DNA from: Boletus sp. NGJ
Lineage: Eukaryota; Basidiomycota; Agaricomycetes; Boletales; Boletaceae
Assembly: GCA_019096195.1 (NCBI GenBank)
Contig: JAGTXK010000229.1
Coordinates: 62,001 to 126,000 of the forward strand
Direction of reading: 5' to 3'
DNA length: 64,000 bases
How positions within the stretch are numbered: position 1 is the stretch's first letter; every line of letters begins with the position of its first letter. The notes below the pieces were generated by a model. That model made no database searches. It was not told the origin of the DNA and was given only the letters and a program-made list of their open reading frames with translations. This document shows positions 21,341-45,947 of this stretch, piece after piece. Made by a program: the position numbers and the translations under genes.

Positions 21341-23688
21341 TCACATAATGCGGCATGAACTCATCTGAGGCTGCATCTTTGGTAGTTCCCACTTCGCCCC
21401 CTCTGGCAACCATCCTAACCGCTCCTGTGCGCACTTCTCGAGCAGCTGGTCGGCCGCCGCCGCGTACTTGCGTACCGTGTATTCGCCTTCAGCGTACCCT
21501 CCCGCGCGTAGCGCAGCCCATGAGACGTTCCTCGCCAACACCGACTGGTCCCGGTTTGGAACAGTATCCAAGATGACAAAGTATGTCACCGGGAAAGTCT
21601 TGAAGGCGAAGAACCAAGGGTGGCCTTTGACGGCACGCTCCAGAAGCCTAAGGTGCTCCTCCCTCTCGATCACTCCGTACAGCGCGTCTACTGCGGAGTA
21701 TGTTACTTTCCATTCATCACTCGTCGATGTGGGCGCAAAAAACCAAGAAGGGGGGGCCTCAAAGTCACGACAACGGATTGCAGGCAGTGCCTCGTTGTTC
21801 AAGGGACCCGATCCAAACACTTCGACTTCGCGGCCGGGGGCAGTTTCGGAACGGAGGACGACCTGGAATAAATCTGGCCGCGCACGAAGCTCGCGCAGAA
21901 ACGCCTCGACGAACGGGTCTGGCCCATTCCGCATGGCACCAAACATGTACGCCCGCGCCTCGATCTCGGCCCACACGATACAGTCCTGCTTTCTTGCTCT
22001 GTAGACTGTTGGTATGGGCCCATACATGTTTGGGGGCAGAGGTAACGCCAGCATATCCGCAACGATGATACCGGACAAGGAGAGGTGATTTCGCGACAGG
22101 GCAGGATCATCAACGTCGAAGTGAGATGGACTTTTGCAGAAACTCGGGCTTGGAACGAGGCCGAAGGCTTCAAAAGAAAGAAACCCAATGAGATCATCGA
22201 AATTGTTGCACAGCCGAACGAAGCAATTCTCTACATTGGCTGGTGGTGCGAGAGTTTGGAGGAGGACCTATTTGGGAACAGGAGGTCAGAATTGTCGGAA
22301 GTAAGAACTGACTAGGAATGGACACATACACACCAAGCTTCGTTGGACATACTCACTGTGTGCGGGCGATTAAAAACCCAGCCTCCAAGCAACGGAAACC
22401 GGCTCTCTGAGAAAGACTCAGTCGTCTATTTCGACTAAAATAACTCGTTCTCGCTCACCTACACCACCGACGTTAGCAACTGTACCGTAACGTGTACGGA
22501 TTGCGTCCAAAACTGCATCTTTAAACCATATTAGAGAAAACCCCAAAGGATCCGAGAACAGATGAAGAAACAGAACGAAATCCTCCACCGAGAAGTCGTC
22601 ACTGAGAATGAGGTCTTTGAAAGAAACTCTTTCCAGAGATCTCATAAACAGACTGGGTTCATGAAAAATGATTCGTCGAGCAAACTGCTGATAGATGAAG
22701 AAATGGTTTCCCAACATAGCCCTGCTAAGCCCTGTCATTAGGCGAGGATCGTGTCGTCCAAAAGCCGAGAATGATTCAAAGTCGAAGAACGGCTTTAAGA
22801 TCTCGATCATTTGTTCCTTTCCGCTGTATCAGGAAATCCGCATTGGTTGTGAGTTGGACGATGATATTCAACGTGAAGCTTACGTCCGTAGTGACATGTC
22901 GATCAAGTCATCATCTCCCATTGCAGGGGTAGGTGGGAGCGCGAGAGGTTTCTTCCTTGGAATCGAAAGAGTCGAATCACGGAAAGCCTCTGGATCATGG
23001 ACAGATTGCAGTACTTCCTCGGTGGTTTGCTTGGAATGTTTATCCAAATCTACTTCAGCTGTCGATCGTGCTTGATCGTTCATCGTTCAGTTCGTAGGCT
23101 CTTCTTTGAAGTGCATCCAGCACTTCGACTGCCCTTATCATTTCTCTCTCAAGCACCTCTAGGCGGCGCTTGTGGCTGTCCTCCCCTGAAAATAGATACA
23201 GCACAACCATCGTCCGATGTCAGCACAAGTCACCGCACTGACTATCCGAACTCACCTTTCAGGAAAAACCGCGTCTGGTGAATATCCCGTCCTATTCTCT
23301 CAACCCGAATTGACTCGAGGTATGTGCCCACCCAGCGCGATTTCTCGAGAGCCGCGTGCCAATCTGTGTACCCGCCGATTTGCTCCTTCGTTGGTAGCTC
23401 TGCGCTGTCCTTAACATCATCGACGACCTTCGATGCGTCCTTGTATCTCTTGTACAGGACGTGGTACTGTCTGTGATGCACCTTGCAACGCACTGGTTTT
23501 GGATGTCCTTCGGTTGCCAGTTGACCACACTGGGTGACTCCGTCTTCCTGTAGAGTGAAACACCGAAGCGGGTAGGTGTCCGCGTTCACGGATGTAGCCT
23601 GAACATCACTTGCGGTTACCTTTGCACCTCCCCTGGTTTTTGCATTCGTGCTTGCTTTGGGTTTGCGCTTATGTCGTGGGCGGGGCAT
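21341..23688 (-). pseudogene. Array family copy A, frameshifted
   Basis: Exons matching the family: 23256-23688, 22884-23185, 22459-22823, 22330-22406 and 21341-22267. Exons 1, 3, 4 and 5 are open and in phase. Exon 2 carries a deletion of 23 bases relative to copy C near 23080-23095, so the first half of exon 2 runs into a stop before the second half. The zinc-finger-like cysteines and histidines of exon 1 are kept. It is also the most divergent full-length copy (start MPRPRHKRKPK against MPGPGNKRK). Either a young pseudogene, or a gene using a start inside exon 2. Coding potential is otherwise well kept, so the break looks recent. Confidence 0.8.
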
Positions 23689-23829
23689 GGATTAAAGATG
23701 GGGTGGTCTGAAGACTGTGAAGACAAGCGTTAAATAGTGCAGCCTCAAGGTGAGGTTACTATGGTTACTACGTTGGCGTGCGCCCTTTCTATCAGGAAAT
23801 AGGCCAACGCATTGAAACATCCACGAAGA

Positions 23830-23960
23830 GTCCCAGCCCTCCGAAAGAATCGACCCTGTGAATCCTGAGGATCTCGAGGTCCTGTGAAGCCTGACGTGTA
23901 GTAATGTCTGCATGATAGCGAGGAACGTACTTCGACTTTCCAGAGGAGTAGCACCGTAAG
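23830..23960. repeat. Duplicated upstream segment of copy A
   Basis: About 130 bp upstream of copy A closely resembles 30836-30960 upstream of copy C (shared GAAAGAATCGACC, TCCTGAGGA and CTCGACTTT-like blocks in the same order). It is part of the duplication that also brought the pseudogene tail at 24480-24970. Confidence 0.65.
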
Positions 23961-24479
23961 TGTGGGATGAGCATCTCTTCCGCCATGATCTTTATGAACT
24001 TGAATCAAGTTGTTGTTGGTACGCGAATTGAAGTGGAAGCGAGTCGACAGCCCTCAATCATCCAAAATCACATGACTCCGACTCTACTTCCGTCCAGTGG
24101 CAGGTCAACCGGTCACGGTACTGTACCGAAGATACCACTGAACAAGTATCTACTAGACGCCAGGACACTGTATCATCTTGACGAATTTCGATGGAGGAGT
24201 TTTCGCTCTGGCAGTCGCAGGCGCTTTGAGTCTTCAAAGGATGAACCGCACAAGAAGCTTGCCGAATGGCAGCGCGTTCGGAACTGGCGTAGCAGCTCAG
24301 TAGCCTTGTGGCCGCCTGCGACCCCACGCACCCCCAGTAAGTAACTTACTATGAATTAAACATTTACACCTCAGGAACTGTGCTCGTCGCCAGGAAGAAT
24401 AATACTGGTGACGTAGCTCCGTGCCTCTGAGGTTAGTTTGCTGATGAAGTAACCCATGTCGTGCCCTCTGTGAACTGAA

Positions 24480-24970
24480 CATGGTGGGACTCCTTTGGGA
24501 CACGGGATCAAGGATATAACTAACACACATTCGCTCATATTGGTCGATATGTGTCGTGGTACTATACTTGATGCGCCGGAAACGAGGCTCTGGGATCTAG
24601 CGACTTGGGGCTCTGTTTGCCAGAGAGCCCCAATATGGATAAATCAGCATGTCTCCCGTCATGGATATACCGTTCTTGCGGAACAGGGAATGCAGCCACC
24701 ACAGGAGCGAGCTCTGCGATGCTCTCCACAGGTGTGTATCACGCTGTTGACTCTCACTTCGATGCATGATACGATTTCTTCACCTTCACCGGTGCAGAAT
24801 TGTGCATCTCTGTATGTGGCTGTTATGGATCAGGCAATTCTGGATGTGCGAGGCGGAGAACAATGCAGAGCTAGAGGTACAGGAAGCGTAAATCTGAGCT
24901 CGATTGCGCTTCATGCTCCGCGCACACGGCTTTCCATCTAGATCTGCATCGTCGGCGTCGCGCGATTAGC
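24480..24970 (-). pseudogene. Duplicated 3' end of the 31446-32675 gene
   Basis: This stretch is a diverged copy of 31390 to about 31910: the 3' flank with ATATAACTAACACACATT, the stop region TTGATGCGCC, and then about 400 bp matching the C-terminal codons of the 409-residue gene (shared CTCTGGGATCTAGCGACTTGGGGCT beginning and GATCTGCATCGTCGGCGTCG end). It has lost a continuous frame through scattered small insertions and deletions and has no upstream two thirds. It sits upstream of array copy A, as the intact gene sits upstream of copy C, so both were duplicated as one segment. Confidence 0.85.
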
Positions 24971-25384
24971 CTGTGGGAGGTAGGATTTGTCGAAGGGGTA
25001 TCTGGCAGTCGGCTCTCCAACGACGGTATGCCACATATCGCCACTCGCATCGACCCTCATTTCACGAACCGGGAGTAGACTAAAGAGACGACAATCAAGA
25101 ATCCTCCGACATGGCCTCAGAAATGTCGATACAGACGAAGTTCTTCAACTTGATATCTGCGATGCCAGTGAAGAGTGTCTTTATGTGCGAATCGAAACGA
25201 ACAAGACGTCACGAGAAGGAGAGGGTAACGCGAGTCCCTCCTGGTCTGGAAGACCTTGAACTTGGTGGGCTCAGTCGTGGATCGATTGATGGAATCACTG
25301 GCACAGATACTAACAAATACACTGCTCTTTCTTCGCCACGACTAATTCATGGGTAAATGATACTCGGCGAGGAAGCCTCGTCTC

Positions 25385-27806
25385 TCACACAACGCCCCTT
25401 GCATTCATCCGATCCTCCATCTTAGCTATTCCCCACTCCATATCCTTTGGCATCCACCCAAACCGCTCGTGCGCACACTCCTCGAACAACTTGTCCGACG
25501 CCACCGCGTACTTGCGTAGCGTGTACTCGCCTTCAGCGTACCCCCGTGCGCGTAGCGCAGCCCATGAGACGTTCCTCGCCAACACCGACCGGTCCCGGTA
25601 TGGGACAGTATCCAAGATGGCAAAATACGTCACCGGGAATGTCTTGAAGCTGAAGAACCAACCTTTGATGTCGCGCGCCAGCATCGTAAGGTACCCCAGC
25701 AGATCCTTTTGCCCTCCAAACACCATGTGCTTCTTCTCCCCGAATGGCATCTGTATCCCTGTTCCGTACAGCACGTCCATTGCGGACTGAAATACGTCCC
25801 ACTTGCTGCTCTTTGATACAGGCGTAAACGGAGAAGAGGGAGAAGGGGGAGCTTCAAATGTACGCCAACGCATCGCAGGCAGCGCCTCGTTGTTCAAGGG
25901 ACCCGATCCAAACACTTCGACTTCGCGGCCAGGGGCAGTTTCGGAACGAATGATGACCTGGAATAGATCTGGCCGCGCACGAAGCTCGCGCAAGAACGCC
26001 TCGACGAACGCATCTGGCTCGTTTCGCATGGCACCAAACATGTATGCTCGTGTCTCAAACTCGGCCCATACCATACAGCCCTGCTTGGTCGCTCTGCGGT
26101 TTGTTGGTATGGGCCCATGTACGTTAGGTGACGATATCATGTCCGCAACAATGATGCCGGAGAGTGAGAGGTGATTGCGCGACAAGCTGGGATCATCAAA
26201 GCCGTAGGGGAGGTCACCTTGGCAGAAATTTGGGCTTGGAACGAGGCCGAGCGCTTCAAAAGACAGGAACCCAATGAGATCATCGAAATTGTTGCACAGC
26301 CGAACAAAACAATTTTCTACATTGCCTGGTGGCTGAAGCATTTGGAGGAGGAGCTATTCGTGAACAGGCGTTCAGAAGTGTCCGAAACAACGAGCAAGAA
26401 TGAATACATACCCACCAAGCTTCATTGGGCATACTAACTGTGTGTGAGCGATTAAAAACCCAGCCTCCAAGCAATGGAAATCGGCTCTCTGAAAAGACTC
26501 AGTCCTCATTGTTGCTATATATAAAAACTCGGTTTCGCTTACCCACACTACCTACGTTGGCAGCTGTACCGTGACGCGATATAGCGAGTGCATCCAAAAC
26601 TGCATCTTTGAACCACTTTAGAGTAAACCCCAAAGGATCCGAGAACAGCTTAAGAAATCTTGCGAGATCCTCCATCGAGAAGTCGTCGCTGAGAATGAGA
26701 TCTTTGAAAGAAACCCTTTCCAATGATTTCATAAACAGACTTGGTTCATGAAAAATGATTCGTCGAGAAAACTGTTGAAAGATGAAGAAACGCTTTTCCT
26801 TGAGAGCCCTGCTAGATTCTGTCTCTGGGTGAGCATCGTCGAGTTCTCCAAAAGCTTCAATATGCGATTCGAAGTCGACGAACGGTTTCAAGATCTGGAT
26901 CATTCGTTCTTTTTGGCTGTATCAGAGAATTTAATTGGCTGTGAGTTGGAGGATGAGTTTCTATATTTCTACGTGAAGCTTACACTCGGAGTGACATATC
27001 GATCAAGTCTTCATCTCCCACTGCCGGCCCGGGGGTAGTAGGTGGTACCGGCGCGAGTGCTTTCTTCCTTGGAGTCGGAAGGGTCGAATCACGGAAAGCA
27101 TCTATATTATGGACAGACTCCAGTACTTCCTCGGTGGTCTGCTTGGACTGCTTTTCCAGATCTACTTCAGCTGTCGATAATGCTTCAAAGTTATTCATAG
27201 CTGGTAAGCTGCCATTTTGTTGATATAGTTCATAGGCTCTTTTTTGAAGAGCATCTAGCGCATCGACTGCCTTTATCATTTCTCTTTCAAGCAGCTTCAG
27301 GCGGCGCCTGTGGCCATCGTCCACTGAAAATGGATACAGTCCAGTGTCAGCAGTCACCGCACTGACTATCCGAACTCACCTTTTAGGAAAAACCGCCTCT
27401 GGTGGATATGTCGTCCTGCTTTCTCGACCCGAATCGCCTCGAGATATTTGCGCACCCACCGCGATTTCTTGAGCGCCACGTGCCAGTCTGTGTACCGGCT
27501 GATTTGCTCCTTCGCTGGTAACTCTGAGCCGGCCTTGACATCGTCGACAACCTTCGATGCGTCCTTGTATTTCTTGTACATGACGCGGTACTGTCCGTGA
27601 TGCACCTTGCAACGCTCCGGTTTGGGATGTCCTTCAGTTGCCAGTTGGCCACACCGAGTGATTTCGTCTTCCTCCAGGGTGAGACACTGAAGCGAGTCCG
27701 CGTGCGTGGAGGTAGCCTGAATGTCACTCTCGGTTTGCTTTGTATCTCCTCTGGCTCTTGCATTCGTGCTTGCTTTGGATTTGCGCTTATTTCCTGGTCC
27801 AGGCAT
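25385..27806 (-). CDS. Array family copy B, intact, unknown function
   Basis: Exons 27380-27806, 26984-27323, 26543-26916, 26412-26488 and 25385-26353 join without a stop to 728 residues. Exon 1 encodes a basic start (MPGPGNKRKSK) and a possible zinc site C-x10-C-x13-C-x2-H-H (from QCLTLEEDE to CKVHH), then helices rich in Lys and Tyr. Exon 2 encodes a likely coiled coil (LKLLEREMIKAVDALDALQK) and a Pro-rich linker. Exon 3 has the most conserved core, RRIIFHEPSLFMKSLERVSF and LILSDDFSMED. Exon 4 is 77 nt. Exon 5 is the large C-terminal domain with SGIIVADM, GREVEVFGSGPLNNEALPAM and ARNVSWAALRARGYAEGEYT. No signal peptide or membrane segment is evident. A longer frame upstream begins without an ATG; the start chosen matches copies C and D. 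I do not recognise the family and propose no function. Confidence 0.88.
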
Positions 27807-28059
27807 CTCTAGAGGGTGGGGTGGAGTTTGGACGGGAGGCTCAGGCTGTGAAGACAAGCCTCACGTAGCGCCGCCGCATGGTGATCATGAGGTTACTGCG
27901 TTGGTGTTCGCCCACTCTATCAGGAAATGGGCCAATGCATCAAAAACATCGGGTTGCAGGATGGAATCATAGATCACAGGGTAAAAATTACACTACTCTT
28001 TTTTCGCCATCGATGATTCATGGGTAGATGATGATACTCGGGCGAGGAAGCCTCGTCCC

Positions 28060-30465
28060 TCACACAGAACCCCTTGCATACAACTGATCCTCCATCAACG
28101 TCATTTCCCACTTCATCTCCTCTGGCATCCACCCAAGCCGCTCGTGTGCACACTCCTCGAACAACCTGTCCGACGCCGCCGCGTACTTGCGTAACGTGTA
28201 CTCACCTTCTGCGTACCCCCGTGCGCGTAACGCAGCCCACGAGACGTTCCTCGCCAACGTCGATTGAGCTCGGTTTGGGACGGTGTCCAAGATGACAAAG
28301 TACGTCACCGGGAATGTCTTGTAGCGGAAGAACCACCCTTTGAGGTCGCGCGATAGGATGGTAAGGTACCCAAGCAGATCATTTCTCCCTCCGTCCTGCG
28401 TCTGTTTCTTCCCTCCGGACGGTATCTGCATCCCCGTTCCGTACAGCACGTCCACTGCGGACCGGAATACCTCCCACTTGCCACTCGTCGATACGGGCGC
28501 CGGAAACGGAGAAGTCGGAGAAGGGGGGGCCTCAAAGGAACGCCCACGCATCGCAGGCAGCGCCTCGTTGTTCAAGGGACCCGATCCAAACACTTCGACT
28601 TCGCGGCCAGGGGCAGTTTCGGAACGAATGACGACTTGGAATAGATCTGGTCGTGCACGAAGCTCGCGAAAAAACGCCTCGACGAATCCGTCTTTTTCGT
28701 TTCGCACCGCACCGAACATGTATGCTCGTGTCTCGATCTCGGCCCATGCGATACAGCCCCGCTTCGTCGCTCTGCGCGTTGTCGGCATTGGCCGACACAT
28801 TTCTGGGGGTTTAGGTGACGCCACCATGTCCGCAATGATGACGCCGGAGAGAGAGAGGTGGTTGCGCGACAGGCTGGGATCATCAAAGTCGAACTGAGGT
28901 GGACTTTCGCAGAAGCTCGGGCTTGGAACGAGGCCGAGCGCTTCAAAAGAAAGGAATCCGATGACATCATCAAAATTGTTGCACAGACGAACGAAGCGAT
29001 TTTCTATATTGGCTGGTGGTGCGAGAATTTTGAGGAGGATCTATTCATGGACAGGAGGTCAGAATTGTCGGAAGCAAGAACTGACCAGGAATGGATACAT
29101 ACCCACCAAGCTTCATTGGACATAGTAGCTTTGTGTGAGCGGTTAAAGACCCAGCCTCCAAGCAACGGAGAACGGTTCTCTGAAAAGACTCAGTCATTAT
29201 TTTTGTTATTAGAATAACTCGTTCTAACTCACCTACGCTACCTACGTTGGCAGCTGTACCATGACGTGACATAGCGAGTGCGTCCAGCACTGCATCTTTG
29301 AACCACTTTAGAGGAAACGCCAAAGGGTCCATGAACAGATGAAGAAATCTTGCGATATCCTCCATCGAGAAGTCGTCACTGAGAATGAGGTCTTTGAAAG
29401 AAACCTTTTCCAATGATTTCATAAACAGACTTGGTTCATGAAAAATGATTCGTCGAGAAAACTGTTGAAAGATGAAGAAATGCCTTTCCAACACAGCCTT
29501 ACTGTGTCCTGTCTTTGGCTGAGGATAGACTTCTTCAAAAACCTCAACGAATGACTCATAGTCGAGGAACGGCTTCAAGATCTCGATCATTTGTTCCTTT
29601 CCGCTGTATCAGGAAATCCGCATCGGTTGTGAGTTGGACGATGAGATTCTACGTAAAACTTACGCCCGTAGTGACATGTCAATCAAGTCTTCGTCTCCCA
29701 CTGCTGGGGTACGTGGTAACGCGAGAGGTTTCTTCCTTGGAATCGGAAGGGTCGAATCGCGGAAAGCATCTGGATTATAGACAGACTGCAGTACTTCCTC
29801 GGTGGTCTGCTTGGACTGGTTTTCTAAATCTACTTCAGCCGTCGATCGTGCTTGATCGTTCATAGCATGTAAGGTGTCGTTGTGCTGATGTAGTTCAAAG
29901 GCTCTCTTTTGAAGTGCATCTAGCACATCAACTGCCTTTATCATTTCTCTTTCAAGCAGCTTCAGGCGGCGCCTGTGGCCATCGTCCACTGAAAATGGAT
30001 ACAGTCCAGTGTCAGCAGTCACCGCACTGACTATCCGAACTCACCTTTTAGGAAAAACCGCCTCTGGTGGATATGTCGTCCTGCTTTCTCGACCCGAATT
30101 GCCTCGAGATATTTGCGCACCCACCGCGATTTCTCGAGCGCCGCGTGCCAGTCTGTGTATCGGCCGATTTGCTCCTTCGTCGGCAGGTTTGCGCTACCCT
30201 TGACATCATCGACGACCTTCGACGCCTCCTTGTATTTCTTGTACATGACGCGGTACTGTCCATGATGCACCTTGCAACGCTCCGGTTTGGGATAACCTTG
30301 GGTTGCTACTTGGCCACACCGTGTGATTTCGTCTTCCTCAAGGGTGAGACATGGGAGCGAATAAGTGTCCGCGGAGGTAGCCTGAATATCACGTAGGGTT
30401 TCCTTTGTACCTCCTCTGGCTTTTGCATCTCCTTTGGCTTTGCGCTTATTTCCTGGTCCAGGCAT
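28060..30465 (-). CDS. Array family copy C, intact, unknown function
   Basis: Exons 30045-30465, 29664-29988, 29233-29603, 29103-29179 and 28060-29040 join in frame to 724 residues. The C-x10-C-x13-C-x2-H-H set, the exon 2 coiled coil, the exon 3 core and the GREVEVFGSGPLNNEALPAM block are all present. Exon 5 is close to copy D, with many differences at third codon positions, which suggests selection on the protein; this was judged by eye only. Only 253 bp separate its stop from the start of copy B, so B's promoter must be short. Its own upstream region resembles that of copy D. Confidence 0.88.
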
Positions 30466-30600
30466 GTTGAGGGTGAGGTAGGGGGTCTGAAGGCACTGTC
30501 CAGACGAGCGTTGGCGCCACTCCGTATCGAGAATCTATGATTGGGCGATTTGGTCATCCTGTATGGAAACGAGGAAGTCGTGCGGCCAGCTGCGGATCGT
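30466..30600 (-). promoter_or_regulatory. Conserved upstream block of copy C
   Basis: Read on the minus strand, the 130 bp before the start codon match the 130 bp before copy D (43395-43526): CCATACAGGATGACCAAATC in C against CCATATAGGATAACCAAATC in D, then a GCGCCAACGCT / CTACGCCAACGCT block and a CAGTGCCTTC / CAGTGTCTTC block before the ATG. Conservation this close to the start suggests a shared promoter or 5' leader, or simply recent duplication. Confidence 0.55.
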
Positions 30601-30652
30601 GGTTTAGGCATTGGTTCTGCATCACGGCCACTCACCACAACATCACATCACC

Positions 30653-30672
30653 CGACCTGTGGCCACAGGTCG
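30653..30672. other. 20-bp perfect palindrome
   Basis: CGACCTGTGGCCACAGGTCG reads the same on both strands. It lies about 190 bp upstream of copy C. It could be a binding site for a dimeric regulator or a chance palindrome. Confidence 0.6.
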
Positions 30673-31445
30673 TGCGATGGGTCACCCCTCGATCTCACTC
30701 CCACTGCTGCAGCATCTAGCTGGCAGTTCCATGAACAGTCCCCAGCTGGCGAGAGCTTGCGCCTCTTAAAACCGCAGCCAGACTCCCAATTGGCGAACGC
30801 ATCAAAACTGTATTCAAAAAGTGTCCCGGTACCCGGAAAGAATCGACCAAGTGAGTCCTGAGGACCTCGAGGACCCATGAATTGTGAGACGTCTTTGTGA
30901 AAACGTGGAATGTACCTCGACTTTGTAGGGACGAACATCAGTAGTGAGCCAGGAGTTCTTCGCTCGGTCGCGCGTCCCGAGTCTTCAGAGCGATGCTGAG
31001 TGCTGAAAGTGTATCAGATAAAAAGACATAGTGAGGTCGTAGTCAAGGTTCACCTGATTTCGACAGTTCACGGAATTAAGTAAAGTCCCAAGTCCAGCTG
31101 CATGCAAATTGACTCTCGTGATCTAGCACTCCTGGGTTCGGACTTCCCAAAACTATAGTACTAGTGGTTTGAAGCCTACTGTATACATAGTGACATCAGG
31201 GCTACATAAGAGAACGATTACCCGCCCACTTCTCATTCTACTAATACCTATGTAAACGTTTCAGGCAATGACTTGGAACAACAAGCTCGCAGGAGAGAAA
31301 ATAGTCGTAGAGTGTGCCATAAATGGTCGTAAATCCGCGTCCAAGTAATCCACGCCATACCCTCAATAAACTGAACACGCTATCCTTTGGAATACAGAAT
31401 CATAGATATATAACCAACACACATTGGCCGATATGTGCCGAAGGA

Positions 31446-32675
31446 CTATCCTTGATGCGCCATAAACGCTCTGGGATCTAGCGACTTGGGGCTCCGTTTG
31501 CCAGAGAGCCCCACGCTAGGGAAATCAGCGTGTTTCCCGTCATGGATATACCGTTCCTGCGGAACAGGGAACGCAGCCACCGCAGGGGTTTCCGTAATGC
31601 TCTCCACAGGCGTGTACGGCGCTGTCGACGTTGACTGTGACGTTGCCGACGAGACGACCGACGTTCGCTTTGATGCGCGATGAGACTTCTTCTTCGCCGG
31701 TGTGGGAACGTGCATCTCCGCATGAGGGTACGGGATAGACTGATGCGTGCCGTGGACCGGGAAATTCTGGATGTGCGAGGCATCCCCAGCAGAGAAAGAT
31801 GCAGATGTACGGGAGCGTGAATCCGAGCCCGATGCGCTTAGTACTGCAGATAGCTTCTTCTTGTTCCGCGTGTACAGCTCCCCGCCTAGATCTGCATCGT
31901 CGGCGTCGCCAGAATAAGAGGTGATGGAACCATCGAAGTCGCCATCCCGACTGAGACCCTCCGGACGTGGATGGTCTGGGACGACTTCGACTGGATGGAA
32001 ACGGAACGACGTGGGGACCGTCTCACTCCCGCTCCCCTGGAATCCCTCGAACGTATCGACGTCCGGACGATGTGACGCCCCGTTGAGCGACCCGAGGGCC
32101 TCGGCCCTCGCGCGTGCTTTCCGTTCTTGTCTACGTGCCCTCCGCTCTGCTTTTCGACGAGCTTCCTCTGCTTCCAGCTGCTGTCGCTCACTCTCGCGCT
32201 GTGCTGCTAGTGCTGCAATGTGGTCCGGCGACGTCAGTCGCTCGATGGTGCTCGCATCGAGCGTGGCTGGGTCGGAGTCGAGCGTGGACGACGAGGCGGT
32301 GACCAACGCCCTTGCCGTCCTACCCGACGAATCATCCCCGTCGTCGTCATCAGAGAGGTATATTGGTGGACGACCAAAAAGGGTGTAACCAAACAGGGTG
32401 ATGGAAAACTTGGCCCGTCGACGGTGTCTCGCTCTGCGTTGCGCGGCGGCGCCCAAGTTGGAGTGGAGCGAAAGGGCATCCGAGTCTGAGTCACGAAGGA
32501 GATGTTCGAGGTCGTTGGATGACGAGGATCTGGTCGAGGCGGAACGTGGTTCCGCATTCGAGGTTGGATTCGGAGTAGAACTCGGAGCAGACTCGGAGCG
32601 CGGTGATGAGGTGAAACATGGGAGACATGAAGCGAATGCAGCACGGATGTTATCGATGTAGGAAAAACTGTCCAT
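31446..32675 (-). CDS. Conserved fungal protein of unknown function, 409 residues
   Basis: A single-exon frame. The N-terminus MDSFSYIDNIRAAF is followed by a cysteine pair (C17, C20), which could be lipidated. Then come a Ser-rich linker, an acidic/Ser stretch (residues 55-75), a basic stretch (77-89) and the block FGYTLFGRPPIYLSDD (95-110), which looks like the conserved core. A charged helix (about 157-195) could form a coiled coil, and a long disordered Ser/Pro-rich tail follows. I recall similar proteins in agaricomycetes without a known role; this was not checked. Its 3' end has been duplicated to 24480-24970. The next gene rightwards is an MFS transporter on the same strand. Confidence 0.82.
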   Translation of the reverse strand: MDSFSYIDNIRAAFASCLPCFTSSPRSESAPSSTPNPTSNAEPRSASTRSSSSNDLEHLLRDSDSDALSLHSNLGAAAQRRARHRRRAKFSITLFGYTLFGRPPIYLSDDDDGDDSSGRTARALVTASSSTLDSDPATLDASTIERLTSPDHIAALAAQRESERQQLEAEEARRKAERRARRQERKARARAEALGSLNGASHRPDVDTFEGFQGSGSETVPTSFRFHPVEVVPDHPRPEGLSRDGDFDGSITSYSGDADDADLGGELYTRNKKKLSAVLSASGSDSRSRTSASFSAGDASHIQNFPVHGTHQSIPYPHAEMHVPTPAKKKSHRASKRTSVVSSATSQSTSTAPYTPVESITETPAVAAFPVPQERYIHDGKHADFPSVGLSGKRSPKSLDPRAFMAHQG

Positions 32676-33265
32676 TGCCGCCTTCTGAAGTTTCAGGTGT
32701 TACTGTGAACGACAACGGTGGGTCTCGATTGGGAAAAAAATGTAGAGGTGAGTCGTGGGATGTGTCCGGAGCGAGCAGAGATGTGCGGATGGTTGTTGAC
32801 TCAAGAAAATGGGTGCGCGAGTCAAACTTGCGCTGCAGGCGGGCACGAGGCAACGAGGGCGTTTTATGAAACCTCGAAACTGTTTCTGGCTTTCCTCTTG
32901 GACCATACCACTACGGTCACGGGTGGCAGTGCAGCGCATACCGGCTAAATCTCATGATTTCTCTTTTTTTTTCTTAGTGTGCTAACGCGACATCTACTGA
33001 CGAGCAGAAACGATCCATTTCATCCTCGATTCGCTGTGGAGAGTTGGAGGGCAAGAATGTCGCCTCCATCGAGACTCGGAAGGCGATCCCAATATGTATT
33101 CCTGCAGCCTATGGCAATACACCGACAAAGGCGCGACTTGCTCGCCTTGGTGATCTATAATACATACACGCGACGAGAACACTAATACTAACCTTGTCTA
33201 CCGTCGATTTTTCGTCAAAGATACCCTTCGGGAGGGAAAAGAGGGGTACAACCTTTTGGCATCAC
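32676..33265. other. Intergenic, promoter of the 409-residue gene and 3' flank of the MFS gene
   Basis: 590 bp with a T10 run near 32964-32973 and no supported gene. Both neighbours are on the minus strand. Confidence 0.45.
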
Positions 33266-35417: not shown

Positions 35418-36206
35418 ATTTCTGCAAGCGAGGGAAAGAACGCAAACGAGAGTGTTTGCTTACGCTGTATATGAACCTAGTGTGCGTCCGAATAGCAGCA
35501 CCTTGCAGTCATCTGTTTTGAGGACCGCAACAAGTCATACGTCAACGCGTTAACCTTGATCGGACGAGAAACCGAACATGTTGGCTCTGCGGTGCACCCC
35601 CACTCATTCGTACGATTGCAAATGAGAACCGTCACAGCATCAAATAACGTTTGATGACGGGCGAGATAGTCGTGGTGAGGGTCCGAGCACCATTATGAGG
35701 TACGAGACATGGATCAGGTGCGTCGTGCGGATGGGTTGAGGTACGAATTTATGCAGCCTGTCGAGGAAGTTTACATACGCTTACCTCTCTCGCCGTAAAA
35801 TCGCATCCATCGGTCATGGTCTCGTACATCTACGATGGGGTGGGGGCCGAAAGCCGTCGGTCGATCAATCCGTCAATATTAATGAGCGCGGAAACGAGGG
35901 GCCATAGTCATAACAGCCCCGCCCCCTAAAATGTGGCTGGGAATTGACGAAGATCCCTCCACGTTTCAAAAGCAAGCGGCGATGGGTCCAGATTCCGTAT
36001 TCGAAGAAAACGTTGTCCACGACCGCATAAGTTCTGGCTGTGTCGTCAGCCTTCAGGTGTTGAAGAAACGCACCAATGCAAGACCTAAGTAGTGCTGGTG
36101 AACAAGAAGCAAAGAACCCACGTCACAGCCACCCGTGCTAATTCAGTCAACCAGCCAATCAAATTTCATTGCGGCCGGCCATCGCCTCCTCTTTCTTCGA
36201 CTCACC
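35418..36206. other. Divergent interval MFS gene / DPH3
   Basis: About 790 bp between two divergent start codons; promoters of both genes are expected here. No motif was singled out and no RNA gene was seen. Confidence 0.5.
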
Positions 36207-36624
36207 ATGGGCGCGTACTACGACGAGATTGAGATTGAGGACATGAGCTGGGACGAAGTAAAAGGTGTTTACCACTACCCTTGCCCGTGCGGTGATCGTT
36301 TCGAGATCTCTCGAAAGCAACTTGCAAATTACGAGGACGTCGCGATCTGCCCCAGCTGTAGCCTGATTATCCGCGTTATATATGATCCCGTACGCATGCT
36401 TTCTGTCATTGCGATCGCATCTTGTGTTGACTGATCCATCCACCCTGTCTTCTCTTCGACAGCTCGATTTCGAAGACGAACCTCCTGACGATGAGTCACA
36501 GCCGGAGGAAAATGAGGAGGATGAGTCAGAGTCCAACTCGGACGACGACCACTTCCAGGATGCCCTCGACCAGCTCACGCTCCACGAGGAATCCAAGCCT
36601 GCTATGATCGCCGTCTCAGCGTAA
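36207..36624 (+). CDS. DPH3: Diphthamide biosynthesis protein 3 (CSL zinc finger)
   Basis: Dph3 is the electron donor for Dph1-Dph2, which start diphthamide formation on elongation factor 2; it also serves Elongator tRNA modification. Two exons, 36207-36389 and 36463-36624, give 114 residues. The CSL fold is complete: [10 protein letters not shown] at the start, then C26-x-C28 ([11 protein letters not shown]) and C48-x2-C51 ([14 protein letters not shown]) holding one iron or zinc. Exon 2 codes for an acidic tail of about 50 residues, which makes the protein longer than the roughly 80-residue yeast form. The start fits the conserved N-terminus exactly. Confidence 0.96.
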
Positions 36625-39082
36625 AAGACGCCTTCTTCGCTTCTTTTACTCCAACTTCCATGCAACGCGGTCGAGTACGTCCGCCTTCTTCTGTCACACT
36701 TGTTCACTGACATATGTCTTGACAACTCACCAGGTGGTACCAGGCTGTCTTCTGATCTAATTGACATGTTGACCTCGCGGCACGCTTACAATGAATGCTG
36801 GAAGCTAAACATGTATACAAAGTGATTGATTTGTCTTACTCATCGCTTTTCTCCCCCCTGAATCAATATTGATATTTTCGTCCAGCGTTGTTGAATACAG
36901 GTAAGAGAGTTCAGAGGCCAAATTTGCTATTCTCATCCTTGGCAGCGAGCTGGACAGGCATTTCGCTCTGGATGGACATCGTTCTGTTAGTTTTTGTTAG
37001 AGGTTCAGACCAACGAACCCAGTCGCGAGATTAAGAAACGGTGGACCAACGCTTCCATCGAGGAGGTAACCGACACCCCGGTCGATGCACCATCAGTCTC
37101 GACTCGGTCACTCGTCGAGGGTTACTAGTGCATATGTATGCTAAATCCTTAGACCTCATGTGCCACTCAAACTGTTTAATTAGACTAACATCCAACGCGA
37201 GAATCCTCATAGCGTAGACCCAAGTGTTGGAGATGAAGATAGATGTTCAAACGTTCACCCTTGACCGCCGGCGATATGACACAATGAGTGAGATGATCAG
37301 TTCCAATGACGAAAATCTGCATCTTTTGAGCGCTGGTTGATAACCTCCTACCTCCTACCAGCATTCAATATTCCACGACGTTCTTTGGCCATGGCCAGCA
37401 TGGAGGTGTCTCAGCCTCACCAGAACATGATGAGACTTTTGTACAACCCATTTGGCGGTGTGTTTTTGCGTTCTATATATGCGACTACGGTAAGGCCGCA
37501 TGAAATATCCATTCAAGTTTTTATCTTCAGCGTACCACACCACACACCTGTTCGCGATCATCGAGCACTCCGAATGTACACGACCGAAAGCCTAATGGAC
37601 AAGTCAGGCTAGCGCGTTGTTCCAGTTCTTCATGGCACGACGGTGCATCTTCGTTCTTGTGTAAACCGGGAACGGTCTGAGATCATCGACTATCCTGGAG
37701 ACCGTCCCGTCCGAGTTGGTGTCGGACTGAATGAAGTCTCATGATGTTCATCCTCGGGATCACAAACATCCCATGTGACGGTGCACTTGTAACCTGTAAC
37801 GTCCGACCTTGCTTCATCGCTGGTGACATTTGCATAAAAATGCAGTCTACGGGTCCGGCGGAAGAAATTATAAAGGAATGTTGGGAATGCCTGTCATTCG
37901 TATCCTGAAACCTACGTACTCAATCGTGTTGCAGATGGATTTGTTTCGTTGAGTCGCGATGCATACGGACGATGCAAAGAGGTGGTAGGTCCACCAAAAA
38001 AGTTAGATGAATGAGAACACGCCTCAAGACCTCATGCATGAATCGAGGGATGTACTCATTGAATCTCCCGGGAGGACGAGGCTCTCCACTAATGTTATTA
38101 CACGGATATGGGTTACACACATTGCACCCGTATGCGCAGAGTCTGGACCGACCTGGTATTACGGGTCAGGAAAATTAGTTGACTGCATCGCTGAGGGGGG
38201 TAGACGGAGGTCGCGATCAGAGGCTGCACGTACTGTGATCGTAATCTTAGACTCTGCCACAGTCACCAAGACAACTTCTGGACCAGCTTTCGTGGTAGTC
38301 GCGAGAATGGCAGGGGGCCATCATAGCACAAGCTCAGAGGGAGTGAGCGTGTCGGAAATCAGGCTGCGTCATAATAATCTGTGAATTATTCAGCCACGAA
38401 CGAGAACATTCGTATCTTGATTGCTGGCTGAGGTTGCCAGTGGAGGAGTGGCACGACAGAGCGTTAAAAGGTCGGCCAAGTTGCAATGTGATTGTGTGCA
38501 ACATAGATGCTCCTAATGTTGGCGCTGTGCGGTATCCAACTACCTGCTCAACGTGAAAGCATGAACGCGGTAGCCATCAGTTAAGAAATCAAACCGCACG
38601 CTCGGTGTTGTTCAATCTTGGAGGAGGGCTGTTGCTATGCGGCTATAGAAGTGTCGTACTCCTCAGCGGGACGAAATATGAATCTGTATGATCGTCGACG
38701 TTGAGGTTAAGCTGGGATAAAAGTGTTTGGTTGAATGAACCGCGCCGCAATCCATTCAGCCATGAACGTGCATTGTGGACATTTCCACAGATTCCACTAG
38801 CTTTTTGCGTAACAAGGCACTTGGTAAATCACGAATTCGTCGTCCTATAATACCCACTCGCCAGTCGGTCGTTCTACATATCATAGCAAGTGAAGAGCTA
38901 AATACGACAAGCAAGCACGACCACAGAACAACTGACTTACTGGCATAACTTGTCGTCGACTCTCACAACAAGCCTACACACCAAAGTCGTCTGCCTTTCA
39001 CCGTCGTCACCGTCGCGTTCCCCGCCACTTAACCCACGCATATCTAGGCTAGACTAATGCTTTGCATTCTAATACCGTCCAC
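36625..39082. other. Gene-poor interval
   Basis: About 2.5 kb after DPH3 with no confident gene. A short plus-strand frame at about 37028-37134 (containing REIKKRWTNASIEEV and ending SLVEGY-stop) has a coding look and an AG acceptor just upstream, but I could not attach it to other exons. No transposon ends were seen. Confidence 0.4.
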
Positions 39083-39700
39083 GATGCTTACGCACTGTAT
39101 AACTTCGTGCCCGGACACGAGGACGAAACAGCCTTGGAAGCTGGACAACCTGTCGGGATTATTGAAAGAAACGACCAGCAGAACGACGGATAATGTCAGG
39201 TAAGCATACTTCCAACCATCTTTTCATATCCCAAATACACCGCGCATGTGTCTGGCAGACGCGTAGCCTGTGCTGTGTATCCGTTCTTCCCGCACAATGC
39301 CACGCTAACCACCCCCCTGCTGCGTTCATCCCACCTACCCCACATTGCATTGTCATTGAACGATGTCGCCGTTCATTCTTTGCTAACCACTCTTTCGTTC
39401 AAAGGCTGTGCAAGATTGGATTGTTCCTCAGAGCTATACGGCGCCGCCTGGCATCGCCATCGGAGAGCCAGACGTTTCTGGCGCCAAAGTCATGAAGCGA
39501 CCATGACCGATGTCCAGAAGGCCATCGAACAGCTCGGAGAAGCGACCGAGACGGAGCACAGAGTTTCAACTTTTCGAGCACTCGGGTGGCTCAGAGACGG
39601 GCGGAGAGATCGACAAGCTTGCCGAACTAGCCCGCAGGGTCGTGAAAGCACAGGGTGCAGAAGAAGAATGTCGTGGGGACATTACATCCCTCTTGTCCTA
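39083..39700 (+). pseudogene. Decayed SH3-domain gene fragment
   Basis: At 39083-39193 the frame reads DAYALYNFVPGHEDE, then LEAGQPVGIIERND, the first half of an SH3 domain, and stops where the conserved tryptophan pair is expected. After a plausible intron, 39410-39510 resumes with what would be the GLFPQSYT strand, but out of frame by one base (it now reads DWIVPQSYTAPPG). A charged tail (SETGGEIDKLAELARRV) follows to about 39700. The broken domain and missing 5' part indicate a pseudogene of a host SH3 adaptor. A short functional peptide is unlikely. Confidence 0.6.
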
Positions 39701-40039
39701 CGTCCCGCGGTGATACTGCAATGCAATCAAATGTGATGAATGAAGAAAAGAGGGCGGGGATGTTCCCAACAGAGCGAGCAAGTGGTTCATTCAGAGGGTG
39801 CAGTCGGCCTTGCGAGAGGCAGGTTTCGTGTTCACCAGACAAAGAAGCCTGCGGTAATGGGTGTAGTAGAACCTGTGCATCGTTGCCTTTTTGGACCTGG
39901 CCGCTCACACAATATCTCAAACCACCATGTCAAAACAAACTTGGTCGCCCCAGATGGATTCAAAAGGTACTTGTCTCTTTCTGCCATCGCGGAGAGCTGC
40001 GAAATGATGTACCTGCCGGTCATTCAGTTGCGTCCACAG

Positions 40040-41836
40040 GCGAGGTCCCTTGTCGCCCAGGAGGCGGAATTACATTGATGAGGCGATCGTCCTCCACCGC
40101 GAAGCATTAGAACTTTTCCCGCCCGACCATCCGAAGCGATACGACTCCTTGGAATTGCTTGGACTTCATCTCTGTGATCGTTACGACCATCTCGGGGGGA
40201 CGGACCTCGAGGAGGCCATTCTGGTCGACCGAGATACACTGGCGCTCTGCTCACCGGGGCACCCAAATCTGTCAGCGTCCTTGATCAAGCTTTCGCTTTA
40301 CCTCTCAACTCGGTACAAGCAGCTTGGGGCGATAGAGGACTTCAATGAGGCCAATGTCCTCGCCCAAGACGCAGTAGCGCTTCAACCACTGGGGCACTAT
40401 TTGGGCAACCTTGCAATTTGTTTGTTCGCTCGGTACAACCAACTCGGGGCGATAGAGAACCTCAACGAGACCAATATTGCCCTCGCTCGAGACACACTGG
40501 CGCTTCACCCATCAGGGCACCCAGAGCGGTCAATGTCTCTGGACAACCTCGCAATTTATCTCACCACTCAGTACAACCAGCACGGGGCGATGGAGGACCT
40601 CAATGAGGCCATTGTCCTCAGCCAAGACACAATGGCGTTTCACCCACCGGGGCACCTAGATTAGCCAAAGTCTTTGGACAACCTCGCAATCTGTCTCCAC
40701 TCGGCACAAGCAGCTCGGGGCGATGGAGGACCTTGACGAGTCCATTGTCGTCCTCGGCCAAGACGCACTGGCGCTTCGCCCACCAGGGCACCCAGATCGT
40801 TCATCATTTTTTAACAACCTTGCTGCTCGTCTCTCCTATCGGCACAACCGGTTCGGGGTGGTAGAGGACCTCAATGAGGCCATTGTCCTCGATCGAGATG
40901 CACTGGTGCTTCGTCCACCAGGTGACTGGGAACTGTCGTCCAGGCTCGGTACCTTGACTGCGCGCAAAGTCGATGGACGTGACAAGAGATCTCGCCATCA
41001 TGTTGCGGGAAACTCTGGGACGAAATTGTCTCCCCCATCGCGAACATCCTCCAGGCGATACGTCCATGTCCATCACGCATCTGGTGGTGCCCCACCGCCG
41101 AGTTCTCTCTTCTTCCCCTCACGCCGCCGGTCCATATTGGAAGGGCCAGCATAATCTCGCTAATCTGTACACCTCATCTTATACCTCAACCCTCACTGCA
41201 TCCCTGCTAGACGGCACGATCCCCCGCATTCTGCATCAAAAGGGAAATACTTCGTTGGTCCAAGCTCAAGCCAAGGGCGAAAAAGAACTTGTTTCGGTCG
41301 GCGCCGAACTGGCCAACATTAGTCAGCGCGTCGATGGCCTCGCCACATTCACGCACGTCGGGGATCGGAAGTCCTGCATCCCCCGGGTCACCGAGGAACT
41401 TATGAAGAACGAATGGGTACACCTTGCATGCCGTGGTCTCCCCAACCGGAGACAGCCGTTCGAGTCCGCGTTCGCTCTCCATGACGGACACTTTACGATT
41501 GAACGCATCATTCGGTGTGAACTACAGAACGCCGAGTTTGTGTATCTCTCCGCCTGTCATACGACTGTCGGAGATGAGGAGAGTCCTGAGTCCTGACGAG
41601 GTGATCCATCTCGCGTCAGTGATGCAGTTCACCGGGTTCCGTTCTGTGATCGGAACGATGTGGGCGGTGGACGATGGTGAGACGAACAAGATCACGTCGA
41701 TGTTTTATGACAATATGAAGGACGAATGCGGTCGTCCGGATTATACCCGTACAACGTTGGCACTGAACAAGACGATGGAAAATCCAGTGTCTATACCACT
41801 TGATCAACGACTCTTATATATACATATCGGTGCCTA
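40040..41836 (+). pseudogene. Decayed TPR-CHAT gene
   Basis: The first part carries at least six tetratricopeptide-like units of about 40-50 residues with the repeated pattern EAIVL...DTLALHPPGHPxR...NLAIYLxTRYxQLGAMEDL. The second part, from about 41200, is a CHAT (caspase-like) peptidase domain, recognisable by VYLSACHTTVGDE and FRSVIGTMWAVDDGE and by a typical C-terminal helix. The reading frame is broken in a few places between and within these parts and the 5' end is not clear, so it is treated as a fossil. Intact TPR-CHAT proteins are abundant in agaricomycetes and resemble effector modules of NLR-like proteins. It lies in the same gene-poor zone as the SH3 remnant. Confidence 0.75.
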
Positions 41837-42429
41837 GTTCTCTTCGTACGCGTGCTTTCTTGCTTTTCCCTGCTGTAGTTGCTGTTCATAGTTGCTATTC
41901 GATCTACTGTGGTATATTTCACAGGACTTGTCCGAGGCGAAAATGTATAAAACTTCAGCTCCTCGCGCCTGGATTGAGCCGTGAATATTTGAATACTCGA
42001 CAAGATATAGTGCAGTGACGTGATTCAAACATGTCAAAGGCATTTGTCTCGCCTTGTGAGCGGAGCTGTCGCGGGATTTCATGATCACGGATGCGGAAGG
42101 AAATGACCGCGAGTCTGGTGTTTTGAAAGTGTATTTCAATACACTTGGTTCGCAAGACGGGCTCTCGCTCTTTCTTCGGGACTACTAGTATGACTCGAGG
42201 ATTCTGTACGCGTATGTTTTGTGAGATCGAAGCTTGACCTACCTCCCGACAGTCATTCGAAGACACATCCGAAGAGTGCAATGGACAATGGACAGTATAT
42301 TGGACAGTCATCACACAACCACTGGCATACCAAGAGCCAGAAGTAAGACAAACACAAGAAAGTAGAAAACAGGCTCCACGTACATAAATATGGCCGACAC
42401 AAGCCCTCAATCTCTCATAACTCCACATA

Positions 42430-42790
42430 CCGTATGAACGCATCACTCCATCCATCCTCAGCATTCTCTACCCCGTCTCCTTTGCCGTCCACGCCAACTG
42501 CTCTTGTGTCCACTGTTCTAGCAGCTCGTCTGATGCCATGGCATACGTGCGCGACGTGTACTCGCCCTCTGCATACCCCGTGCACATAACGCCGCCCACC
42601 CCATACTCCTCGCCACCGAGATCCGGGGGCAGTGTCTAAGATGGCGGAGTACGTCACTCAGTGGGAAGGTTTAGTAGCACGAGAACCAAACTTTGGGGTT
42701 CCGCTCGAGGAAAGATACCACTGCATTTCCCCGTCCGGTCCATATAGCACGTCTCAGACAGCGGACCGCACGACTATCCATTTGGATGCG
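42430..42790 (-). pseudogene. Decayed fragment of the array family (exon 5 tail)
   Basis: On the minus strand this stretch aligns with the C-terminal part of exon 5: an AILDTAP segment in place of VILDTVP, then sequence equivalent to ARNVSWAALRARGYAEGEYT in disrupted form. It is much more divergent than copies A-D and has no other exons, so it is an older remnant. It lies about 0.7 kb before copy D and in the opposite orientation. Confidence 0.7.
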
Positions 42791-43394
42791 TGGCCCAAGG
42801 TGATGGCATCATAGAGGAGACAGCAATGGTGGGGGCTTTGTTGTTCGGATTCTGACACAAAGCGTCTCAATTTCCCGGCTCGGTTTCGGAGAGGGTGGTC
42901 ACCTCGGGTTCTTGAGCGCGTACGGGGACGATTTGGGAGTGCCATTACATTGGAGGTAGCCGGGTTGAAGCAAGAAGTTTGACAGAGATTCAGAAGCTCA
43001 GGAGAGCAGGCAGCCGATCCAATATTGAAAACTTGCCTCTCCAGCAGACCACTGTGAATAATGCCTCGAGACTCGAGTGCTTGCATCCTGTGGAATGAGA
43101 GGTATGCTTAGTACAGGAATATGATTTTGGGGGAGCCAGGAGTTTGCAAAGGTTCTTGAGAGTGCACGCGCGACGATGGACACGACGACGGTACTAGACA
43201 GAAAATGGACTAGTGGGACTTTACATAATTTCGTGAACTGTCCAAATCATCATCACTTGAACTGTGACTACACCTTTGTAACTAATCCACTTTCGACACT
43301 AGGCATTGCTCGCAGGGATCATCTTCTGATTTAGAAGGCTTTGGATATCAAACGTTCCCCATCGGAGCGCCCCCGACCAAGTAAAGAACTCTTT

Positions 43395-43526
43395 CACTAC
43401 GTCTTCATTCCCATATAGGATAACCAAATCGCCCCAACATGAATTCCTGATAAGGGGCGGGCGCTACGCCAACGCTTGTCTTCACACTGGCAGTGTCTTC
43501 TTCAGATTCCACCACACCCTCTAGAG
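43395..43526 (+). promoter_or_regulatory. Conserved upstream block of copy D
   Basis: The 130 bp before the start of copy D match the upstream block of copy C in order and spacing (CCATATAGGATAACCAAATC, then a CTACGCCAACGCT block and CAGTGTCTTC). See the copy C entry for the comparison. Confidence 0.55.
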
Positions 43527-45947
43527 ATGCCTGGACCAGGAAATAAGCGCAAATCCAAAGCAAGTACAAATGCAAAAGCCAGAGGAGGTACAAAGGAGTC
43601 CGCAAGTGAGGCTACCTCCACGCATGCGGACACCTACTCGCTTCCGTGTCTTACCCTTGAGGAAGACGAAATCACACGGTGTGGTCAACTGGCCACCGAA
43701 GGTTATCCAAACCGGAGCGTTGCAAGGTGCATCACGGACAGTACCGCATCCTGTACAAGAAATACAAGGAGGCGTCGAAGGTCGTCGATGATGTCAAGGG
43801 GGGCGCAGACTTACCGGTGAAGGAGCAAATCGGCCGATACACAGACTGGCACGCGGCGCTCGAGAAATCGCGGTGGGTGCGCAAATATCTCGAGGCAATT
43901 CGGGTCGAGAAAGCAGGACGACATATCCACCAGAAGCGGTTTTTCCTAAAAGGTGGGTTCGGATAGTTGCGGTGACTGTGCTGACATTAGACGATGGTTG
44001 CGCTGTATCCATTTTCAGTGGATGATGGCCACAGGCGCCGCATGAAGCTGCTTGAAAGAGAAATGATAAGGGCAGTCGATGTGCTGGATGCACTTCAAAG
44101 AAGAGCCTATGAACTATATCAACCGAATGGCAGCTTACCAGCTATGAACAATGAAGCACAATCGACGGCTGAAGTAGATCTAGAAAAGCAGTCCAAGCAG
44201 ACCACCGAGGAAGTACTGCAGTCTGTCTATAATCCAGATGCTTTCCGTGAACCGGCCCTTCCAATTCCAACGAAGAAAGCTCCCGCGCTCTCACCTACCA
44301 CTGCAGTGGGAGATGAAGACTTGATCGACATGTCACTACGAGCGTAAGCTTTACATAGAATCTCATCGTCCAACTCACAACCCATGCGGATCTCCTGATG
44401 CAGCCGGAAGGAACAAATCATGATGGTCTTCAATCTGTTGATCGACTTTGAATCATTCGTCGAGGCTTTTGCCAGTGGAGAAGGCGTTCCTCAGCCAAAG
44501 ACAAAATCTGACATGGCTCTGTTGGAAAAGCATTTCTTCATTTATCAGCAATTTGCTCGACGAATCATTTTTCATGAACCAAGTCTGTTTATGAAATCAC
44601 TGGCAAGAGTTTCCTTCAAAGACCTCATTCTCAGCGATGACTTCTCGATCGAGGATCTCGCAAGGTTTTTGAAGCTGTTCTCGGAACCTTTGGGGTTTCC
44701 TCTGAGGTGGTTCAAAGATGCGGTTTTGGACGCACTCGCTATTTCGCGCCACGGTACAGCTGCCAACGTAGGTAGTGTAGGTAAGTGAGAGCAATTTACT
44801 TTAGTAACGATGACGCCTGAGTCTTTTCAGAGAGCCGGTTTCCGTTGCTTGGAGGCTGGGTTTTTAATCGCTCGCACACAGCGAGTATGTCCAATGAAGC
44901 TTGGTGGGTATGTATCCATTCCCGGTCAGTTCTTGCTTCCGACAATTCTGACCTCCTGTTTACCAACAGCTCCTCCTCAAAATTCTCGCACCACCAGCCA
45001 ATATAGAAAATCGCTTCGTTCGTCTGTGCAACAATTTTGATGATGTCATTGGATTCCTTTCTTTTGAAGCGCTCGGCCTCGTTCCAAGCCCGAGCTTCTG
45101 CGAAAGTCCATCTCACCTCGATTTTGATGATCCCAGCCTGTCACGCAACCACCTCTCCCTCTCCGGCATCATCGTTGCGGACATGGTGGCATCACCGAGA
45201 CCCGCAAGGATGTGTGGGCCCGTGCCAACACCCCGCAGAGCGACGAAGCGGGGCTGTATGGTATGGGCCGAGGTTGAGACACGAGGATACATGTTCGGTG
45301 CGGTGCGAAACGAAAAAGACGGGTTCGTCGAGGCGTTTTTTCGCGAGCTTCGCGCGCGGCCAGATCTATTCCAAGTCGTCATTCGTTCCGAAACTGCCCC
45401 TGGCCGCGAAGTCGAGGTGTTTGGATCGGGTTCCTTGAACAACGAGGCGCTGCCTGCGATGCGTGGGCGCAACTTTGAGGCTCCCCCTTCTCCGACTTCT
45501 CCGTTTGTGCCCGCATCGACGAGTGGCAAGTGGGAGGTACCCCGGTCCGCAGTGGACGTGTTGTATGGAACGGGGATACAGATGCCGTACGGAGCGAAGA
45601 TGCACATGCTGAACGGAGGGAGGAATGATCTGCTTGGGTACCTTACCATCCTATCACGCGATCTCAAAGGTTGGTTCTTCCGCTACAAGACATTCCCGGT
45701 GACGTACTTTGTCATCTTGGACACCGTCCCAAACCGAGCTCAATCGATGTTGGCGAGGAACGTCTCATGGGCTGCGTTACGCGCACGGGGGTACGCTGAG
45801 GGTGAGTACACCCTACGCAAGTACGCGGCGGCGTCGGACAGGTTGTTCGAGGAGTGTGCACACGAGCGGCTTGGGTGGATGCCAGAGGACATGAAGTGGG
45901 AAATGACGATGATGGAGGATCAGGTGAATGCAAGGGGCTTTGTGTGA
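43527..45947 (+). CDS. Array family copy D, inverted, one apparent frameshift
   Basis: Exons 43527-43952, 44019-44343, 44404-44780, 44831-44907 and 44970-45947 match copies B and C exon for exon; the encoded protein would be about 727 residues. One base is missing from the CCC run at about 43708-43709 (TATCCAAACC here, TATCCCAAACC in copy C), which breaks exon 1 just before the last zinc-ligand block CKVHH. All the rest is open. Because the change is a homopolymer contraction, it may be a sequencing error rather than a real lesion. It is on the plus strand, 13 kb from the array, and its flanks carry the same upstream and downstream blocks. Confidence 0.78.

Follow-up and report, generated by a model that had tools for sequence, protein, structure and literature searches.

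Families of FunK1-type kinases, CHAT-TPR proteins and F-box proteins are commonly expanded in mushroom-forming fungi, and a short C-C-C-H motif marks the DUF5763 type of protein. In the excerpt of PMC4986451 used here, the repeats of fungal NLR proteins are reported to be under positive selection, and the excerpt of PMC8893723 describes young genes of mushroom-forming fungi as numerous, weakly constrained and variably expressed. To these we compare a five-exon gene family of Boletus sp. NGJ, found in a 64,000-nucleotide stretch of contig JAGTXK010000229.1 (positions 62,001 to 126,000, C44:62001-126000 in our contig numbering; hereafter the window), where copies A to D occupy positions 21341-45947, from the stop codon of A (21341) to the stop codon of D (45947). 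The family is unrecognised in the sense of being absent from the libraries used in this analysis. Like the expanded mushroom families, it has local and dispersed copies and broken members; gene pieces of those families adjoin its cluster, and the genome is rich in CHAT and fungal-kinase pieces, but a domain common to them and to this family was not found in Pfam scans of the B and C proteins, five exon 5 pieces and six other exon pieces, with expectation values (E) up to 10. It resembles the DUF5763 type in having three cysteines and a histidine in a short segment ending C-x2-H, and DUF5763 was not among the Pfam matches listed. With the fungal NLR and HET incompatibility families, as far as the excerpt of PMC4986451 describes them, it has in common apparent exchange between copies and variable regions; unlike them, it matches no NACHT, NB-ARC or HET profile and has no pooled sliding window with a ratio of nonsynonymous to synonymous divergence (dN/dS) above 1.

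We read the locus as a birth-and-death gene family encoding an intracellular adaptor-like protein. Taken whole, this reading stands at about even chances, while its evolutionary part, an amplified family with birth, death and exchange between copies, is in our judgement very probable. Birth and death with exchange is ordinary for gene families, and the picture of young genes in the excerpt of PMC8893723 fits such an ordinary reading.

Gene models derived from splice sites common to the copies place three of them in tandem on the (-) strand: copy A at 21341-23688 (exons 23688-23256, 23185-22884, 22823-22459, 22406-22330 and 22267-21341, of 433, 302, 365, 77 and 927 nucleotides (nt)), copy B at 25385-27806 (exons 27806-27380, 27323-26984, 26916-26543, 26488-26412 and 26353-25385, of 427, 340, 374, 77 and 969 nt) and copy C at 28060-30465 (exons 30465-30045, 29988-29664, 29603-29233, 29179-29103 and 29040-28060, of 421, 325, 371, 77 and 981 nt). 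Copy D is inverted and lies 13 kb from C on the (+) strand at 43527-45947 (exons 43527-43952, 44019-44343, 44404-44780, 44831-44907 and 44970-45947, of 426, 325, 377, 77 and 978 nt). B and C are intact, with 728 and 724 amino acids, and the frames of A and D are each broken once. All four copies have four GT-AG introns in common, each 50-70 nt long, as well as an exon 4 of 77 nt, and their pairwise DNA identity is 77-87% over 2.5-2.9 kb in the six pairs, a likeness that exceeds chance by far. This layout, the shared introns, the 77-nt exon and the two open copies had all been proposed in a preliminary description of the locus, and the gene models agree with it on each of these points.

The genome (32,776,125 bases on 141 contigs) was searched for further copies by scoring the best candidates only, a procedure that remote relatives could escape. 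With the C protein as query, the 26 pieces matched at E up to 10 all belonged to A-D, to a fifth copy (E) or to a relic, and the 8 and 7 pieces matched by exon 5 of A and exon 1 of B likewise came only from these. Copy E, at C7:35104-37305, is near-full-length and heavily decayed; the relic, at about 42429-42736 (-), retains the C-terminal end of exon 5, matching approximately residues 616-722 of C at 36-46% amino acid identity with a frame change. The decayed fragment reported earlier is thus real, and the proposed local amplification holds for A-D and the relic but not for E, which sits on another contig. Upstream of A, duplicated pieces at 24447-24961 (-) match the 3' end of an open reading frame (ORF) at 31446-32675, located upstream of C, together with its flank, and mark a tandem duplication unit. 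Their counterparts upstream of C lie at 31343-31909 (-) and overlap the 3' end of that ORF (24447-24751 versus 31343-31629, 77% identity; 24909-24961 versus 31857-31909, 81%), in line with the flanking blocks noted previously. E also carries, at 77% identity, some 760 nt of A's upstream sequence. Moreover, A and E have in common the start MPRPRHKRK and, in exon 5, a deletion and an insertion, both of 6 nt, at identical places, with a long deletion nearby (51 and 48 nt), and the copy tree is (C,D,(B,(A,E))). In the simplest history, whose order of steps we infer, the gene would have been duplicated in tandem together with part of the neighbouring ORF, a second tandem step would have yielded B and C, and the inverted copy D and the dispersed segmental copy E, both observed, would have arisen.

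Decay of the copies is graded. Relative to C, the single break of A is a 23-nt deletion in exon 2 and that of D the loss of 1 nt from a CCC run in exon 1, and all remaining exon indels of both are multiples of 3, while E carries five frame-breaking indels (5, 10, 10, 133 and 2 nt) plus in-frame stops. The frames described earlier as kept are therefore kept in B and C and lost in A, D and E, i.e. two of the five near-full-length copies are intact. The break in D is either recent or a sequencing or assembly error, as suggested by its position in a C run and by D appearing as constrained as C. Intact B and C, with purifying selection between them, thus stand beside decaying A, D, E and the relic; two intact copies, two broken once, one ruin and one relic are what birth and death would leave.

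Selection was estimated by Nei-Gojobori counting with our own script, the ten copy pairs being non-independent. Across these pairs dN/dS ranged from 0.371 to 0.492 (bootstrap upper limits 0.475-0.648), with 0.375 for B/C (bootstrap 0.29-0.476, 300 resamples), and the 2.2-kb frames of B and C are both intact at a synonymous divergence (dS) of 0.31. The family is under moderate purifying selection, and the selection assumed in the preliminary description is borne out in this form, with ratios that are not near 1. Polarised changes agree, the ratio of nonsynonymous to synonymous changes being 1.06-2.14 in 11 overlapping branch counts versus about 3.3 from site numbers; D (1.38, 1.32) is similar to C (1.45, 1.06) and A is highest (1.84, 2.14), a difference given without significance test. 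When the six pairs of A-D are pooled, dN/dS in 46 sliding windows, each 45 codons long, spans 0.23-0.92, so that none exceeds 1. Two faster regions stand out, at codons 241-315 (pooled up to 0.92) and 571-630 (up to 0.83) of C; the slow stretches include codons 496-570 and 631-705, and the slow blocks have pooled values of 0.23-0.27.

The informative sites among A-D fall into three groupings of 57, 20 and 21 sites, and the site types are clustered along the gene (44 runs, against 57.2 on average over 10,000 shuffles; P 0.0008). The longest concordant tracts cover 25 polymorphic sites in B/C and 17 in A/C, each reached in 0 of 5000 shuffles. Tracts in C/D (P 0.021) and A/D (P 0.025) were weakly above the shuffles and those in A/B (P 0.45) and B/D (P 0.19) were no longer than them; because six pairs were tested, only B/C and A/C are relied on. 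B and C are identical over a run of 169 nt across exon 1, intron 1 and exon 2, and their tract includes intron 1, whose likeness is unusual in several pairs. This intron (23186-23255, 27324-27379, 29989-30044 and 43953-44018 in A to D) is more alike among the copies than the adjoining exons (100% in B/C, 94.6% in A/B), which may reflect either gene conversion in this tract or an element under constraint. The tracts suggest conversion-like exchange between B and C and between A and C; uneven constraint along the gene could be an alternative cause of the longer tracts. In several pairs, introns 1 and 2 match at least as well as the adjoining exons, and three of the five near-full-length copies are broken, as would be expected if the cluster were non-functional and B and C were open by chance. 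We consider such a pseudogene cluster improbable, as dN/dS lies well below 1 up to the bootstrap limits in all ten pairs, two long frames have survived at the dS given above, and the slow blocks have the low pooled values given above.

Within the birth-and-death reading, the likeliest product is a protein that stays inside the cell and is not membrane-bound. Its N-terminal 140 residues are basic (isoelectric point 9.74 in B, 9.80 in C) and contain three cysteines each in B and C, so the N-terminus, previously called Cys/His-rich, is so only to a modest degree. It does contain a C-x10-C-x13-C-x2-H motif, which A, B, C and E each encode in a single frame; the frame break of D falls inside it. 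The candidate ligand residues are thus conserved in four of five copies, and no profile of a known zinc family was matched in Pfam. This motif is not known to us from any named family, and the literature gave no match to the motif string and, judged from titles and abstract openings, no description of the family. A membrane segment is unlikely, because the maximum 19-residue hydropathy mean is 1.26 in B and 1.43 in C. No profile of Pfam or NCBIfam reached its cut-off for the family proteins or exon pieces; as a control, six of ten neighbouring ORF pieces matched a Pfam family with E up to 0.01, four of them above the cut-off. Several candidates were taken as chance: in Pfam, ZapB for exon 2 of B (15.7 bits versus a cut-off of 31.5, E 0.021), PSII_Pbs27 (13.4 bits versus 25) and DUF2129 (11.4 versus 22); in NCBIfam, ribonuclease D (13.8 bits versus 516, E 0.022); in PHROGs, a best E of 0.13; and in the PDB, best E of 0.81 for the whole C protein and of 0.37 and 0.62 for the exon 5 and exon 1 profiles. 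A coiled coil in exon 2 is plausible, ZapB being the sole weak match that could hint at a coiled-coil-like composition. No relative was found by tblastn in prokaryote genomes (C exon 5, B exon 1) or in viral contigs (C exon 5, exon 3 alignment), which says little about fungi, and the family may occur widely in Agaricomycetes under the label 'hypothetical protein'. That the protein could not be assigned to any family, as stated at the outset, stands for the libraries used. A clear domain match, or dN/dS near 1 without expression, had been named as grounds for abandoning the proposal; such a match was not found, and dN/dS lies in the range given above.

We propose that the basic N-terminal region with its C-C-C-H motif, a putative zinc ligand, is followed by a probably helical stretch and by constrained C-terminal blocks, split by the two faster regions, which may be loops. 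The protein could then act in regulation or as an adaptor, binding nucleic acids or other proteins, its copies being partly redundant in number. This role, which we advance tentatively and regard as less probable than the remainder of the reading, is suggested by the motif, the charge and the fact that neither membrane nor catalytic signatures were seen. Several observations weigh against our reading. No zinc or nucleic-acid domain was among the Pfam matches, E has Q in place of the second His of CKVHH, and AlphaFold gave no usable structure (predicted local distance difference test, pLDDT, 46.3 for exon 1, aligned from 3 sequences, and 29.7 for exon 5, aligned from 5), presumably due to the scarcity of relatives. 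Furthermore, single-pair windows above 1 occur as raw ratios, without significance test: 1.05-2.58 in six windows of A/D at codons 196-315, 1.89 in C/D, 1.35 in A/B, 1.35 in B/C and 1.28 in A/C. The A/D excess accompanies scarce silent differences in the same codons, of which conversion could be a cause.

In an alternative view, raised in the preliminary description, this is a conflict or self-recognition family, similar to those of somatic incompatibility, whose members vary their recognition surfaces and exchange segments through conversion. The conversion-like exchange, the two faster regions and the single-pair windows above 1 (A/D up to 2.58, then C/D, A/B, B/C and A/C) would suit it, as would the CHAT, TPR, fungal-kinase and below-cut-off F-box pieces nearby. 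However, none of the 46 pooled windows exceeds 1, NACHT, NB-ARC and HET profiles are absent from the Pfam matches of B, C and the exon pieces, and the neighbouring families are spread genome-wide, with 42 matched pieces for CHAT, including the adjacent gene, and 41 for the fungal kinase. A linkage of the copies to CHAT genes was also considered and rejected: a CHAT piece at C7:22131-23090 is close to E, yet it ranks only 25th of 49 among the pieces matching the CHAT near D. The suggested role thus found no positive support, and we judge it as improbable as the pseudogene cluster. Its more specific form, in which an undescribed C-terminal fold, a new C-C-C-H zinc motif, conversion and two diversifying surface loops would together serve non-self recognition, seems to us more improbable still. 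Least probable of all is a cargo or domesticated gene of a mobile element, which the inverted copy D and the dispersed copy E would allow, since 32.8 Mb hold five near-full-length copies and a relic (best candidates scored only), no transposition profile was matched in the Pfam scan of B and C, and the A-like upstream flank on E is expected of segmental duplication.

Around the cluster, the families above the Pfam cut-off are TPR, CHAT, fungal kinase and DUF6540/DUF6914. TPR and CHAT pieces at window positions 40053-41790 (+) form one gene, probably decayed, and at least 12 of the CHAT-matching pieces of the genome are on contig C73. At 49527-51696 (-) lie the pieces of a gene for a fungal protein kinase (PF17667), one of them scoring above and one below the cut-off, and an ORF at 46526-47125 (-) is above the cut-off for both DUF6540 and DUF6914. 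Elsewhere in the genome, contig C74 carries a laccase-like gene cluster with 8 of 13 Cu-oxidase pieces, and the top PDB match of a laccase ORF is Coriolopsis gallica laccase (E 6.9e-51). No clear telomere was seen in the first 6 kb of C44 and C7, C44 having one run of three CCCTAA units and the C7 stretch being largely N.

Many young fungal genes have no assigned domain. The birth-and-death family described here, which combines two intact copies, natural breakages of recent date, constraint that can be measured and conversion between its copies, offers a tractable test of whether such families act. A self-recognition role, if true, would matter more.

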